Source: Natrinema versiforme JCM 10478
GTDB taxonomy: Archaea > Halobacteriota > Halobacteria > Halobacteriales > Natrialbaceae
Reading direction: 5' to 3'
DNA: 44,861 bases
NCBI RefSeq assembly: GCF_000337195.1
Contig: NZ_AOID01000028.1
Location: 1-44,861, forward strand
Below are positions 6,065 to 10,624 of the stretch, piece after piece (the first letter of the stretch is position 1; each line of letters begins with the position of its first letter). The position numbers and the translations under genes were made by a program. Below the pieces are notes generated by a model. The model had not been told where the DNA came from. It saw only the letters and a program-made list of their open reading frames with translations, and searched no databases.

Positions 6065-7048
6065 CTAGCGGTCGACGCGCTGGATCCACGTCCCCGGCGC
6101 GTCGAGTTCGTCGTGGCTGGGGAGGTTCTCGGGTTGGTCCCAGACGAGACTCGCCGTCTCGAGGTCGCGGACGGCGACGACGTGTTCGAAGAAGTTCTTG
6201 CCGCGCTCGTACTGGCGCTCTTTGAGCCCGAGGCCGAGCAGTCGTCGGAAGAGCTTCTGGAGCGGGCCCCGGCCCTGCCGGCGCTCGTCGAGTTTGCGGC
6301 GCAGGTCCTCGTACTCCTCGTCGAAGGCGTGGTCCATCAGGAGTTCGGCGTAGCCCTCGACGACGGTCATCGCGGCGTCGAGATCGCGGAACGCCTCGCG
6401 GTCGAACGACCCCTCCGAGAGCGTCGCGATCCCGTCTTCCATGCGGGACTCGAGGTGGTCCGAGAGCCACGGCGCGGCCCCGAACTCGGCGGCGTGGGTC
6501 ACCTCGTGGAAGGCGATCCAGCGGCGGAACCGGTCGGCGTCGACGTCGAGTTTCGCCGCGGCGTTGAGGATGTTCGGGCGGACGAAGTACAGCGCGTGGT
6601 CGTTCGCGGGCGCGTCGGCGAGCAAGAGCGGGTCGTACTGTCCGAGGACGTTCCGCCCGAGGAAGGAGAGCAGGACGGTCATCGTCCCCGTGTTGATCGT
6701 CCGGGCGACGCCGGGGAACGTGCCGGTGTGGGTCTCGAGGGTTCCCATGACCCGCTCGAAGGTGGCGACGTTGGCGTCGATCCAGTGGTGGCGGTTCTGG
6801 ATCTCGACGGTCTCCGGGACGTCGAACTCGGCTCCCGAAACGGCCCGCACGGCGGCCCGCGCGTCCCGAACGTCGCTGGCGTAGGCCTCGCGCTCCCCGG
6901 GCTCGAGATCGAGCGAGCCGGGGTCGGTCGCCGCCTTGGCGGCGTCGGCGGCCGACCGCCAGTCGATCGCGTCGTCACCGGACGCCCCGGCAACCGCCCG
7001 GGCGCTGCGATAGAGATTCACGTCTATCGGTACGGGAAGGATGCGCAA
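6065..7048 (-). CDS. Zinc-dependent metalloprotease-like protein, DUF2342 family
   Basis: A 327-residue protein matching the family sometimes annotated 'coenzyme F420 biosynthesis associated', with a zincin fold. The HExxH motif is intact (FHEVTHAAEFGAAPW, residues about 191-205), so zinc binding is likely. The N-terminal region has the conserved helical segment IQNRHHWIDANVATFERVM, and FVRPNILNAAAKLDVDADRFRRW precedes the HExxH helix. Length is close to the family's usual 330-370 residues. No signal peptide is seen, so it should act in the cytoplasm. The substrate and the link to F420 are not established. The gene is monocistronic, with the start taken at ATG 7048. Confidence 0.8.
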   Translation of the reverse strand: MRILPVPIDVNLYRSARAVAGASGDDAIDWRSAADAAKAATDPGSLDLEPGEREAYASDVRDARAAVRAVSGAEFDVPETVEIQNRHHWIDANVATFERVMGTLETHTGTFPGVARTINTGTMTVLLSFLGRNVLGQYDPLLLADAPANDHALYFVRPNILNAAAKLDVDADRFRRWIAFHEVTHAAEFGAAPWLSDHLESRMEDGIATLSEGSFDREAFRDLDAAMTVVEGYAELLMDHAFDEEYEDLRRKLDERRQGRGPLQKLFRRLLGLGLKERQYERGKNFFEHVVAVRDLETASLVWDQPENLPSHDELDAPGTWIQRVDR

Positions 7049-7659: not shown

Positions 7660-7887
7660 ATGAGTGGACGACCGCTGGACGTCCTCGAGGCGTCGCTCGG
7701 CGAACGCGTTTCGGTGCGACTCAAGAGTGGCGACGAGTACATCGGCGAACTCGCCGGCTACGATCAACACATGAATCTGGTGCTCGAGGACGTGACGATT
7801 CCCGTCGAGGGCGGCGTCGAAGAGGAGACGCCGGTCGAAGACACAACCATTATACGCGGCGATAACGTCGTTTCGATCACTCCATGA
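7660..7887 (+). CDS. lsm: Lsm/Sm-like archaeal RNA-binding protein
   Basis: A 75-residue Sm-fold protein, expected to form a heptameric ring that binds U-rich RNA and small RNAs. Sm1 motif: [29 protein letters not shown], with the conserved D-x-H-M-N-L. Sm2 motif: [10 protein letters not shown], with the RG-N pattern. The start is the ATG at 7660; a TATA-like ATTAAG about 28 bases upstream fits a leaderless transcript. The stop overlaps the ATG of rpl37e (ATGA at 7884-7887). This lsm-rpl37e pair is a conserved archaeal arrangement linking RNA metabolism and the ribosome. Confidence 0.95.
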
Positions 7888-8060
7888 CTGGTGCAGGAAC
7901 CCCGAGCCAAGGAAAGAAGAACAAGACGACGCACACGAAGTGTCGTCGCTGCGGAGAGAAATCCTATCACACGAAAAAGAAAGAGTGCTCGTCGTGTGGC
8001 TTCGGCAAGTCCGCCAAACGCCGCGGCTACGAGTGGCAGTCGAAAACCGGCGACAACTGA
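7884..8060 (+). CDS. rpl37e: 50S ribosomal protein L37e
   Basis: A 58-residue gene. The protein begins [20 protein letters not shown] and carries a zinc ribbon, CRRCG at 20-24 and CSSCG at 35-39, with a strongly basic middle part. These are the hallmarks of eukaryal/archaeal L37e, a small zinc protein of the large subunit. It is unusually basic for a haloarchaeal protein, as expected for a ribosomal component. The start codon overlaps the lsm stop (ATGA), which implies coupled translation. Confidence 0.95.
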
Positions 8061-8234: not shown

Positions 8235-9425
8235 ATGGCAACGACAGACGCCTTCGCCGGCCTCGAGTGTGTCGACTGCGGGGCGGTCGTCGACGCCGTC
8301 GCGTCCCAGCGGTGTCTGGACTGTGGCGGGTCGCTCGATCCGACCTACGACTACGACGCGATCGACCTCGATCGCGAGGCCTTCGCCGCCCGGCCGTTCG
8401 ACTCGCAGTGGCGCTACGCCGAACTGCTGCCCTTCGATCGCGAGTCGGCGGTGACGACGAACGAGGGCGCGACCCCGCTGGTCGACTGCCCGGAACTGGC
8501 CGACGAACTCGGCGTCGAGCGCGTCGCCATCAAAGACGAGGGGCGGAACCCCACGGGCTCGAGCACGGACCGCGGCGCGTCGGTGGCCGTCACCGCGGCC
8601 GCCCGGGACGGCGCGACCGACGTCGCGCTTCCCTCGCCTGGCAACAGCGGACAGGCCGTCGCGGCCTACGCGGCCCGCGCGGGACTCGACTCCCACGTGT
8701 ATCTCCCCTCCCGCTCCGGCTTTACGAACAAGGCCATGGTCAACGTCCACGGCGGCGACATGAACGTCGTCGGGGGCCGCTACGGCGACGCGGCCGGCGC
8801 GTTCGAGGAAGGGCTCGACGAACACGACGACTGGTACTCGCTCCGGGCCGTCGACACGCCCTACCGCCACGAGGGCGCGAAGACGATGGCCTACGAAATC
8901 GCCGAGCAACTCGAGTGGGAGGTTCCCGACGTGATCGCCTATCCGACGGGAGTCGGAACCGGGCTCGTGGGGCTCGCCAAGGGCGCACGGGAACTGCGGG
9001 AAATCGACCTGATCGACGAGTTGCCGGCCCTCTACGCCGCGCAGGCGTCGGGGTGTGCGCCCATCGTCGAGGCGTTCGAGGACGACCGCGAGGACCACGA
9101 ACCGGTCGACCATCCCGACACGATCTGTGGCGAACTCGAGATCCCGGACCCCGCCGCGAGCCCGCGGGTCCTCGACGCGATCCGCGAGACCGACGGTGGC
9201 GCGGTCGCGACCGACGATCCGGACATCCTCGAGTCCGCTGTGCAGGTCGCTAAGTCGACGGGCCTCGAACTCATCCCGAGCGCGGCCGCGGCGGCAAGCG
9301 GCGCGTGGGAACTCGCCGAGCGCGGCGCGTTCGACGGCGACGAGACGGTCGTCATCGTCAACACGGGCTCCGGCAACAAGGAGGCCGACGTGTTGCGTAG
9401 CCACCTGATGAGTCAGGGCGTCTGA
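8235..9425 (+). CDS. Threonine-synthase-like PLP-fold protein lacking the PLP lysine
   Basis: A 396-residue protein similar over its full length to fold-type II threonine synthases. It has an N-terminal zinc ribbon (Cys12, Cys15, Cys27, Cys30), the domain entry DEGRNPTGS, the phosphate-loop-like SPGNSGQA, FTNKAMVNVHGG and a C-terminal NTGSGNKE. The lysine that normally forms the Schiff base, in GSFKDRG, is missing: residues 109-112 read S-S-T-D, with Thr111 (ACG at 8565-8567) at the lysine position and Ser110 in place of Phe. The rest of the fold is intact and the frame is open, so the gene is not decaying. It is probably a paralogue with a changed function rather than the pathway ThrC. TATA-like sequence (CCTTAG) lies about 28 bases before the ATG. 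Confidence 0.85.
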   Translation: MATTDAFAGLECVDCGAVVDAVASQRCLDCGGSLDPTYDYDAIDLDREAFAARPFDSQWRYAELLPFDRESAVTTNEGATPLVDCPELADELGVERVAIKDEGRNPTGSSTDRGASVAVTAAARDGATDVALPSPGNSGQAVAAYAARAGLDSHVYLPSRSGFTNKAMVNVHGGDMNVVGGRYGDAAGAFEEGLDEHDDWYSLRAVDTPYRHEGAKTMAYEIAEQLEWEVPDVIAYPTGVGTGLVGLAKGARELREIDLIDELPALYAAQASGCAPIVEAFEDDREDHEPVDHPDTICGELEIPDPAASPRVLDAIRETDGGAVATDDPDILESAVQVAKSTGLELIPSAAAAASGAWELAERGAFDGDETVVIVNTGSGNKEADVLRSHLMSQGV

Positions 9426-9557: not shown

Positions 9558-9731
9558 ATGTGTGAACATTCACCAGAGTGTTCGAACGGGGCCTCGTGCC
9601 AACTCGTCCTCGAGAACGGACGGACCGGCCTCGAGACCGCCGAATACTACTGTAAGGCCCACCTCGTACTGCGGATCTGGGAGGTCGAGAACGACACCGC
9701 GCTCCGGGCCGTCAGCGCCGAACAACTGTAG
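9558..9731 (+). CDS. Small Cys-rich (putative zinc-binding) protein
   Basis: A 57-residue ORF starting at ATG 9558. The protein starts [14 protein letters not shown] and later has EYYCKAHL. Cys2, Cys8, Cys14, Cys32 and His35 are candidate zinc ligands, with the C-x2-H pair at 32-35. The rest is an acidic amphipathic helix. Such micro-proteins with zinc-finger-like patterns are common in haloarchaea, but I do not recognise this one's family. Codon use (GC-rich third positions) agrees with the neighbours. It lies between the ThrC-like gene and GGGP synthase on the same strand. Confidence 0.6.
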
Positions 9732-9922: not shown

Positions 9923-10624
9923 ATGACTACCCCCTGGGACGAGTGGAATCATATTCTCAAGATCGATCCGGACAAGGAGTTACCCGAGGGCGTGACCTAC
10001 GGCGATCTCTGTGCGACCGGCACCGACGCGATCGAGGTCGGCGGCACCATGGGCATCACCGAGGAGAACATGAGCGCCGTCATCGAGGCTTGCGCCGAAC
10101 ACGACGTGGCGCTCTATCAGGAGCCGTCGAACCCCGAGGTCGTCCTCGAGGACGACGCGCTCGACGGCTACCTCATCCCGACCGTCTTCAACGCCGGCTC
10201 GCCGTTCTGGATCACCGAGGCCCACAAGGAGTGGGTCCGACTCGAGGGCGAACTCGACTGGGATCGGACGACGACGGAAGCTTACATCGTCATGAACCCC
10301 GACGCCGACGTGGCGGAACTGACCGAGGCGAACTGCGACCTCGGCGCGGACGACGTCGGCGCGTACGCGACCGTCGCCGAGCACATGTTCGGTCAGGAGA
10401 TCGTCTACGTCGAGTACTCCGGCACCCTCGGCGACGAGGCGGTCGTCGAGGCCGCCGCCGAGGCCACCGACGAGTCTACGCTGTTCTACGGCGGCGGCAT
10501 CCACGATTACGACTCCGCGTACTCGATGGCCCAGTACGCAGACGTCATCGTCGTCGGCGACCTCGCACACGACGAGGGGATCGAGGCCGTCCGCGAGACC
10601 GTCGCGGCAGCCAACGAGGCCTGA
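9923..10624 (+). CDS. Geranylgeranylglyceryl phosphate synthase
   Basis: A 233-residue (beta/alpha)8-barrel enzyme joining geranylgeranyl diphosphate to sn-glycerol-1-phosphate, the first committed ether bond of archaeal membrane lipids. Visible motifs: IEVGGTMGI near 34, [21 protein letters not shown] near 73, YVEYSG near 163 (substrate site, usually YLEYSG), LFYGGGIHD and [11 protein letters not shown] near 215, the phosphate-binding glycines. Length is typical of the group I enzyme. The start is the ATG at 9923 ([10 protein letters not shown]); the longer open frame upstream has no family match. A T-run follows the stop (10646-10655). Confidence 0.92.

Follow-up and report, generated by a model that had tools for sequence, protein, structure and literature searches.

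Repeated loss of the PLP site in a haloarchaeal threonine synthase homolog that keeps a second set of conserved residues

Why would a lineage keep an intact gene for a threonine synthase (ThrC) homolog that lacks the lysine to which the cofactor, PLP, should be bound? The question is raised by one gene in a 44,861-nucleotide stretch of the Natrinema versiforme JCM 10478 genome, hereafter the window. An earlier note on this DNA had described an intact frame reading GSSTDRG. This is what the sequence holds: the open reading frame runs through 396 residues without interruption, and its lysine motif (N105 to G114) is NPTGSSTDRG where NPTGSFKDRG is expected. The codons at 8556-8567 are GGC (G108), TCG (S109), AGC (S110), and ACG (T111).

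8235-9425, plus strand: threonine-synthase-like protein, Lys-less (class A-B+, see below), 396 residues; identified by PALP, PRK08197, and AlphaFold2
8553-8576, plus strand: T107-G114, TGSSTDRG in place of TGTFKDRG; S110 (8562-8564) and T111 (8565-8567) replace Phe and the PLP-binding Lys
8268-8324, plus strand: zinc-ribbon cysteines C12, C15, C27, and C30, all four present in the window protein; archaeal-type N-terminal ribbon

The window protein has a threonine synthase fold (fold-type II, PALP) without the Schiff-base lysine. That it is a ThrC homolog, as first proposed, is confirmed by its scores against Pfam PALP (PF00291, 220 bits) and the NCBIfam model PRK08197 “threonine synthase” (344 bits, cut-off 303). 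It is also confirmed by an AlphaFold2 model (mean pLDDT 95.2, alignment of 57 sequences) whose top PDB matches are threonine synthases, with VIA-align Z scores of 43-50 (2c2b, 49.9; 6nmx and 6cgq, 48.8; 1v7c, 48.4). Besides the fold and the score above the PRK08197 cut-off, it shares with ThrC (EC 4.2.3.1) the zinc ribbon, N105, T107, D112, and R113, and the R211/K216 region. It differs from ThrC in the missing Schiff-base lysine, an altered phosphate loop, the loss of K215, and a score for TIGR00260 (thrC) of 153.5, under the cut-off of 167.1.

The protein is present in almost all haloarchaea. In the window’s family, 124 of 125 genomes gave matches (E up to 1e-80); in the class, 383 of 391 sampled genomes did (E up to 1e-75, a threshold that also admits close paralogs). 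One of the eight class genomes without a match at 1e-75, G360, has a copy broken by three stops. Loci were drawn from both searches, from 79 named genome contigs, and from further genome stretches, with identical proteins counted once. This gave 312 distinct proteins, of which the stop-broken copy (L332, from G360) and a fragment (L331, from G350) were excluded before alignment. Sixteen of the 310 rows (canonical ThrC-like and other outgroup paralogs) were then removed before the family counts, leaving 294 proteins. Setting aside 26 second copies and four TNTFKDRG paralogs leaves 264 haloarchaeal orthologs: 99 are A+, having K111 and an intact PLP phosphate loop, and 165 are A-. Genus and family labels were inferred from named relatives: Halorubrum (g33), Haloferax (g46), Natrinema (g1), and Haloferacaceae (f4).

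The Lys-less state is neither an artifact nor specific to the strain. The earlier judgment that a sequencing error is unlikely holds, since both codons differ from those for Phe-Lys and the change recurs in orthologs; chance and misreading are rejected along with it, as relatives in the genus share the state. A strain-specific change is rejected by the loss seen across haloarchaeal orthologs (165 of 264 A-). Lysine-bearing homologs, once named as a sign of strain specificity, do exist (99 of 264), but the loss extends over whole genera or families.

In the sequences, the missing lysine belongs to a wider loss that takes in the entire PLP site.

8943-8963, plus strand: PLP phosphate loop P237-G243, PTGVGTG in place of PTGGGVG; PTGGGVG is found in 99/99 A+ proteins
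8637-8648, plus strand: cofactor-side loop P135-G-N137-S138, with A135P and A138S; A135 is found in 99/99 A+ and 18/165 A- proteins
8865-8882, plus strand: R211-H-E-G-A215-K216; R211, G214, and K216 are kept, and K215 is replaced by Ala

The first description had zinc ribbon, phosphate loop, and the remainder of the fold all kept. The four cysteines and the ThrC fold are indeed there, but the phosphate loop is not (PTGGGVG has become PTGVGTG; canonical ThrC has PVGNAGN), and the cofactor site is further changed by A135P, A138S, K215A, G300E, and G307A. Across the 294 family proteins, lysine and loop are kept or lost together: K111 and GGGVG are both present in 129 and both absent in 158. In the other seven the lysine stands beside a broken loop, and the loop never occurs in a protein that lacks the lysine (GGGVG in 0 of 158 members without Lys111). 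F110 and K111 are each found in 99/99 A+ proteins; F110 remains in 16/165 and K111 in 7/165 A- proteins. K215 is present in 96/99 A+ vs. 2/165 A- proteins, and G300 in 99/99 and 17/165; G240 and G307 are left in 7/165 and 3/165 A- proteins. Each cofactor-side residue counted (F110, A135, K215, G240, G300, and G307) is kept in 96-99 of the 99 A+ proteins.

The ribbon cysteines are missing in about a quarter of A- members. Lys-less orthologs of the Halorubrum type (L115-L144) can be without them; L115, for example, has S, S, L, and D at positions 12, 15, 27, and 30. Zinc binding, judged by these residues, seems to be dispensable too in this group.

No single substitution marks the Lys-less proteins. 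Column 111 has been replaced by L, T, A, V, R, Y, D, I, F, M, G, E, N, or H across lineages, and the Lys-less proteins do not form a single clade in the tree. The idea that one conserved substitution defines a new subfamily was thus mistaken: the loss has occurred several times inside one orthologous family, lysine-bearing members of which still sit at the same locus. A compensating lysine was looked for, and in no column does the share of Lys among A- proteins rise by over 15 points. Seven A- proteins do bear a lysine at 111 (L013, L021, L022, L037, and L041; L296 and L300), all with a broken loop and without Phe110, and they read GTSKDRG or GTVKDRG. In the five Natrinema-type GTSKDRG proteins, F110, K215, G300, and the loop are absent and E300 is present as in Lys-less relatives. 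For these reasons, their lysine is best read as coincidental, having apparently come back in a Lys-less background.

PLP could in principle still be bound without a Schiff base, leaving some catalysis. N137 and T377 are kept in the window protein and in many A- proteins, and both presumably face the cofactor; their roles, and that of the phosphate loop, follow from the alignment with ThrC and from ThrC structures. In addition, the titles of PDB entries indicate that Lys-to-Thr mutants of tryptophan synthase beta crystallize with ligands or intermediates. However, no A- protein has an unaltered phosphate loop, which contains a Glu in 73/73 Haloferacaceae A- proteins, and K215 and A135 have been lost along with it. 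We therefore consider retained PLP binding very improbable. Normal PLP chemistry, which the earlier note had excluded, is very unlikely in the window protein given that the whole PLP site is lost in sequence, and it is highly probable that this protein is PLP-less and non-canonical.

The ThrC-type cleft residues E77, K100, N105, T107, D112, R113, R160, K166, R211, K216, C274, and E345 are conserved at 97% or more in the 152 A- proteins counted. We assume ligand roles for R160, K166, R211, and K216, based on the ThrC alignment and ThrC structures.

A second group of residues is conserved regardless of class. This set, B, consists of N170, R182, P294, G299, and E302 together with a C-terminal RSHLM[GS]xG[IV] tail, and it is 98-100% conserved in A+ and A- proteins.

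8706-8780, plus strand: P158-R182; P158, R160, K166, N170, H172, G173, G174, and R182 are invariant or almost invariant in both classes
9114-9140, plus strand: P294-E302, PDTICGELE; P294, G299, and E302 belong to set B, and E300 replaces Gly
9396-9422, plus strand: C-terminal tail RSHLMSQGV (set B), at a fixed distance from the stop codon

N170, P294, G299, and E302 are found in 99/99 A+ and 165/165 A- proteins, and R182 in 98/99 and 165/165. The RSHLM-type motif begins exactly nine residues from the end in 99/99 A+ and 162/165 A- proteins, and the final residue is Ile or Val in 95/99 and 155/165, respectively. AlphaFold2 confidence falls to a pLDDT of 79 over the last six residues of the window protein, so no docking site for the tail is predicted in the monomer. 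The conservation pattern indicates that the cofactor site is dispensable in this orthologous family and set B is not. The family can accordingly be described as having two functions that are separable at the level of residues, of which the window protein appears to have kept B and shed PLP catalysis. The unchanged set B suggests a second job besides catalysis.

A+ and A- genes occupy the same two loci, and the A- genes are on this basis positional orthologs of the A+ genes.

7884-8060, plus strand: ribosomal protein L37e gene, upstream; conserved neighbor in Natrialbaceae
9923-10624, plus strand: PcrB/GGGP-synthase-family gene (PF01884, 171 bits), downstream; conserved neighbor in Natrialbaceae

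At the Natrialbaceae locus, the gene lies between Lsm/L37e and the PcrB/GGGP-synthase gene, and at least one of these neighbors is found with 41 A+ and 56 A- genes. In the window, the Lsm gene, likewise a conserved neighbor in Natrialbaceae, ends at 7887, upstream of the gene studied here; the names L37e and Lsm are presumed from sequence. At the other locus, the gene is beside a flavin amine-oxidase-like gene (divergent), a DtxR-family regulator gene, and a GDT1 transporter gene, at least one of which accompanies 49 A+ and 86 A- genes. Among the 213 loci outside the L37e/GGGPS context, the flavin amine-oxidase-like gene was seen at 100, the DtxR-family regulator at 56, and the GDT1 divalent-cation antiporter at 42. 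This neighborhood spans about 1.4 kb upstream and 1.0-1.8 kb downstream of the gene. It is possible that DtxR and GDT1 point to a metal link for the family. We take the DtxR-family neighbor to be SirR, and ArtA to be an archaeosortase.

Two other genes nearby were observed. A Zincin_2 metallopeptidase-like gene (6065-7048, minus strand, 201 bits) lies upstream of Lsm and is conserved in this neighborhood. A Cys-rich ORF of 57 residues ending in YYCKAH (9558-9731, plus strand), absent from the ORF list, lies between the threonine-synthase-like and PcrB/GGGP-synthase genes; tblastn among the loci gave 39 matches to it at E up to 1e-4, with 91-100% identity among the 12 matches listed.

The A- state arose more than once. 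A first tree of 242 rows gave eight changes between K and non-K but had long branches that joined each other, and trees without the cofactor columns were therefore built; one of 70 rows has five changes, all five forced by starred branches. The final tree, from which cofactor and B columns were removed, was rooted outside haloarchaea and excluded the fast rows L309, L310, L304, and L297. It needs at least eight class changes, and placing all A- proteins in one clade is rejected (log-likelihood lower by 330; p-AU 4.6e-81). Halococcus, genus g57, and a metagenome-assembled genome (L080) show losses within groups that are otherwise A+. The loss in L080 is recent: the protein is 94% identical to a K+ relative and, among 33 positions tabulated, differs from it at F110C, K111N, V242G, and M75I only.

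A different history would involve no repeated loss: A+ and A- would be old paralogs or alleles, exchanged by recombination at a single locus. Three K+ genes, L147, L146, and L048, fit such swapping. They sit in otherwise Lys-less genera and group with K+ genes of other genera, although their flanks are congeneric where comparable, the exceptions being the short Lsm gene of L146 and, in part, L147. Holding each with its own genus is rejected (p-AU 0.014, 0.0002, and 1e-5, respectively). The history thus includes replacement of the gene at its locus, or else hidden paralogy, and how many losses there were is uncertain. However, the A- genes of Halococcus, L080, g57, and Natrialbaceae each nest with support among the K+ genes of their own group. 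Moreover, second matches at 1e-80 in Natrialbaceae are all paralogs of 41-50% identity, so that no genome there has both forms. Swapping as a full substitute for repeated loss is thus unlikely.

Lys-less genes are under purifying selection, with dN/dS about 0.2. Pairwise Nei-Gojobori medians are 0.178 for Natrialbaceae A+, 0.221 for Natrialbaceae A-, and 0.198 for Halorubrum-type A- genes; the values for the mixed “other K-” (0.469), second copies (0.330), and “other K+” (0.227) are less reliable, as distances between distant pairs are near saturation. The somewhat faster rate of Natrialbaceae A- relative to A+ genes, and the stop-broken copy of G360, might be taken as signs of a relaxed gene decaying toward a pseudogene. 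Against this, only one of the 312 distinct proteins has stops (L332) and one is a fragment (L331). Set B is conserved in 165/165 A- proteins, the C-terminus is fixed, and the gene is retained through the sampled Haloferacaceae. Decay is largely refuted by this conservation, and we give it hardly any credence.

The reverse separation, A without B, is found in a duplicate. Second K+ copies comprise 26 proteins in 25 sampled genomes, mostly Haloferacaceae-like and a few Haloarculaceae-like. They keep the tested A residues in 26/26 at seven positions, while N170, R182, P294, E302, M392, and G395 are all found in 0/26 and G299 in 5/26; the replacements are E or Q for R182, E or L for N170, and A for E302. 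Second copies were picked as K+ proteins without the tail, so that its absence is by definition, but the internal B residues were not used for picking. Neither conserved neighborhood was seen for any of 30 tail-less K+ proteins collected without a synteny filter; for the final 26, absence of synteny also served as a filter. Many second-copy loci are only about 4 kb long, so a neighboring gene could be missed. Nineteen of the 25 genomes also carry a retrieved A- copy, and five more have a family match that scores like A- in the search tables; G154 has none. No genome of the set has a second copy together with an A+B+ copy.

The nearest relatives found outside haloarchaea, L352 and L353 (40-41% identity), have the A residues and no B. 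The rooted tree requires two changes for B, in agreement with a single gain and a single loss. The simplest history is that an A+ ancestor gained B in haloarchaea; later, the gene at the ancestral locus repeatedly lost A, and a duplicate lost B. A further tail-less K+ paralog, reading NPTNTFKDRG and about 48-50% identical to the window protein (L112, L299, L301, and L303), is scattered over few genomes, once on a plasmid.

A canonical ThrC-like gene is, by its sequence, a separate gene in this genome. In the whole genome (G000, 4.19 Mb in 72 contigs), five further matches to the window protein were found at E up to 0.001. Two of these have GSFKDRG at 36-37% identity: L002 (C48:1221-2360) and L003 (C26:175213-176367). 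L002, with a C-terminal TTGHLLKD motif of canonical ThrC type, is a ThrC-like gene that fits the second, normal ThrC that the earlier note had suggested seeking. In Haloferax volcanii, a transposon insertion in thrC3 (HVO_2969) alone is reported to cause auxotrophy, and glycine, serine, and threonine together restored growth (PMC4300041). HVO_2969 would be a candidate ortholog of L002.

What, then, might the Lys-less proteins do? One answer is a new enzyme, in which the cleft vacated by PLP would have been remodeled for a reaction that needs no cofactor, with gained acidic residues as catalytic or metal-binding groups. The candidates are E300 in most A- proteins, with E242 and D/E378 in Haloferacaceae. 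The charged cleft residues are invariant, E or D is found at 300 in 121/152 A- vs. 0/99 A+ proteins, and Haloferacaceae A- proteins carry E242 in 73/73, D or E378 in 72/73, and E300 in 73/73. In Natrialbaceae, however, position 240 is mostly V, A, or T and position 242 is T or V, and Halarchaeum has R240 and R300. As the new residues differ between lineages, and set B is common to all, there is no common new active site, and a new enzyme seems rather unlikely.

Set B could also be purely structural. The tail would then dock on N170, R182, P294, and E302 of its own or a neighboring subunit, and the A- protein would be a structural subunit, for example in a heterodimer with canonical ThrC. The second copies, which have no tail, have also lost the internal B residues, as would be expected of residues in contact with it, and PALP paralogs are available as partners (11 proteins above the Pfam cut-off in the genome, including the window’s). 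On the other hand, the pLDDT of the tail is below that of the core, and a structural module alone leaves the retention of 165 A- copies without catalysis unexplained. We regard this explanation as quite unlikely.

We favor a conserved pseudoenzyme with a ligand-binding or regulatory role, and hold this to be moderately probable. Two hallmarks of a pseudoenzyme are seen in the sequences: cofactor and catalytic residues are lost, and the gene is retained under purifying selection. The window protein is probably a conserved, recurrently evolved, PLP-less pseudoenzyme, and a ligand-binding regulator that acts via its tail. PLP binding would have been given up, and B kept, in the window’s lineage and several times elsewhere. 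The emptied cleft may still bind a threonine-synthase-like (phosphorylated amino-acid) ligand without chemistry, through the invariant ThrC-type residues E77, K100, N105, T107, R160, K166, R211, and K216. A partner would be regulated through the free C-terminal tail, the most likely partners being a fold-type II PLP enzyme (CysK or canonical ThrC) or the neighboring subunit of its own dimer.

A bolder form of this explanation is doubtful: a two-function core protein would have been split by evolution, with the Lys-less proteins serving as metabolite sensors whose G-[IV] tail inserts into a fold-type II active site. PLP catalysis would have been discarded at the ancestral locus, or carried by the B-less second copy in Haloferacaceae and a few Haloarculaceae-like genomes, and the old substrate would be bound in the cofactor-free cleft. 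Several observations count against the favored regulator. Second copies have lost the internal B residues along with the tail, so B may be a structural module only, and the eight of 391 class genomes without a match argue against B being essential everywhere. The low model confidence at the tail, the K+ genes that group outside their own genera, and the lack of an Ile tail on the genome’s own CysE (see below) belong here too.

The tail recalls known contacts. The C-terminal Ile tails of CysE, of the CdiA toxin of E. coli 536, and of EGL-9 are reported to contact CysK-type active sites (PMC5562914, PMC12895370), and CYSL-1 of Caenorhabditis elegans is a CysK homolog without biosynthetic activity that regulates EGL-9 (PMC5562914). 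Under the favored reading, the window protein would resemble CYSL-1 as a fold-type II relative turned regulator, with the ligand site kept without biosynthesis and a C-terminal tail (Ile in the CYSL-1 system) as the contact. The two differ in that the conserved tail here is on the enzyme-like protein itself, the closest solved relatives of which are ThrC and not CysK. The CysE of this genome ends in AERVD and has no Ile tail. The likeness of the G-[IV] tail to CysK-binding tails is a lead by analogy, and the tail could equally dock on its own dimer.

Other PLP-family proteins have lost catalysis or are presumed to have lost it. TSB-like of eudicots is described as an inactive tryptophan-synthase-beta paralog that activates TSA (PMC12727527). 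It is likewise a fold-type II pseudoenzyme under selection, but it belongs to one plant lineage, is a paralog beside an active copy, and has a known partner, whereas here the ortholog itself changes, and does so repeatedly. A further case, Rv3778c of Mycobacterium tuberculosis, we take to be of fold type I. It is reported to be a PLP-family protein without the lysine, presumed non-catalytic and possibly functional (PMC12910592). Loss of the PLP lysine and presumed lack of catalysis are common to both; Rv3778c differs as a cysteine-desulfurase relative and a single protein, and is not known to have a second conserved residue set. Full-text searches, with subscription journals mostly outside their coverage, returned no literature on the Lys-less haloarchaeal ThrC family.

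The family model name “threonine synthase” is very probably wrong for 165 of 264 haloarchaeal orthologs, and it misleads metabolic reconstruction. The repeated loss of the cofactor site with B fixed is a natural experiment that isolates a non-catalytic function at residue resolution. It raises the question of why the PLP reaction has been dropped so often while the scaffold cannot be. The function of B is open to point mutation (E302, R182, and the last two residues) in Haloferax volcanii or Halorubrum. If the bolder sensor reading is true, the family would be an archaeal counterpart of CysE/CysK and CYSL-1/EGL-9, evolved many times from one ortholog.
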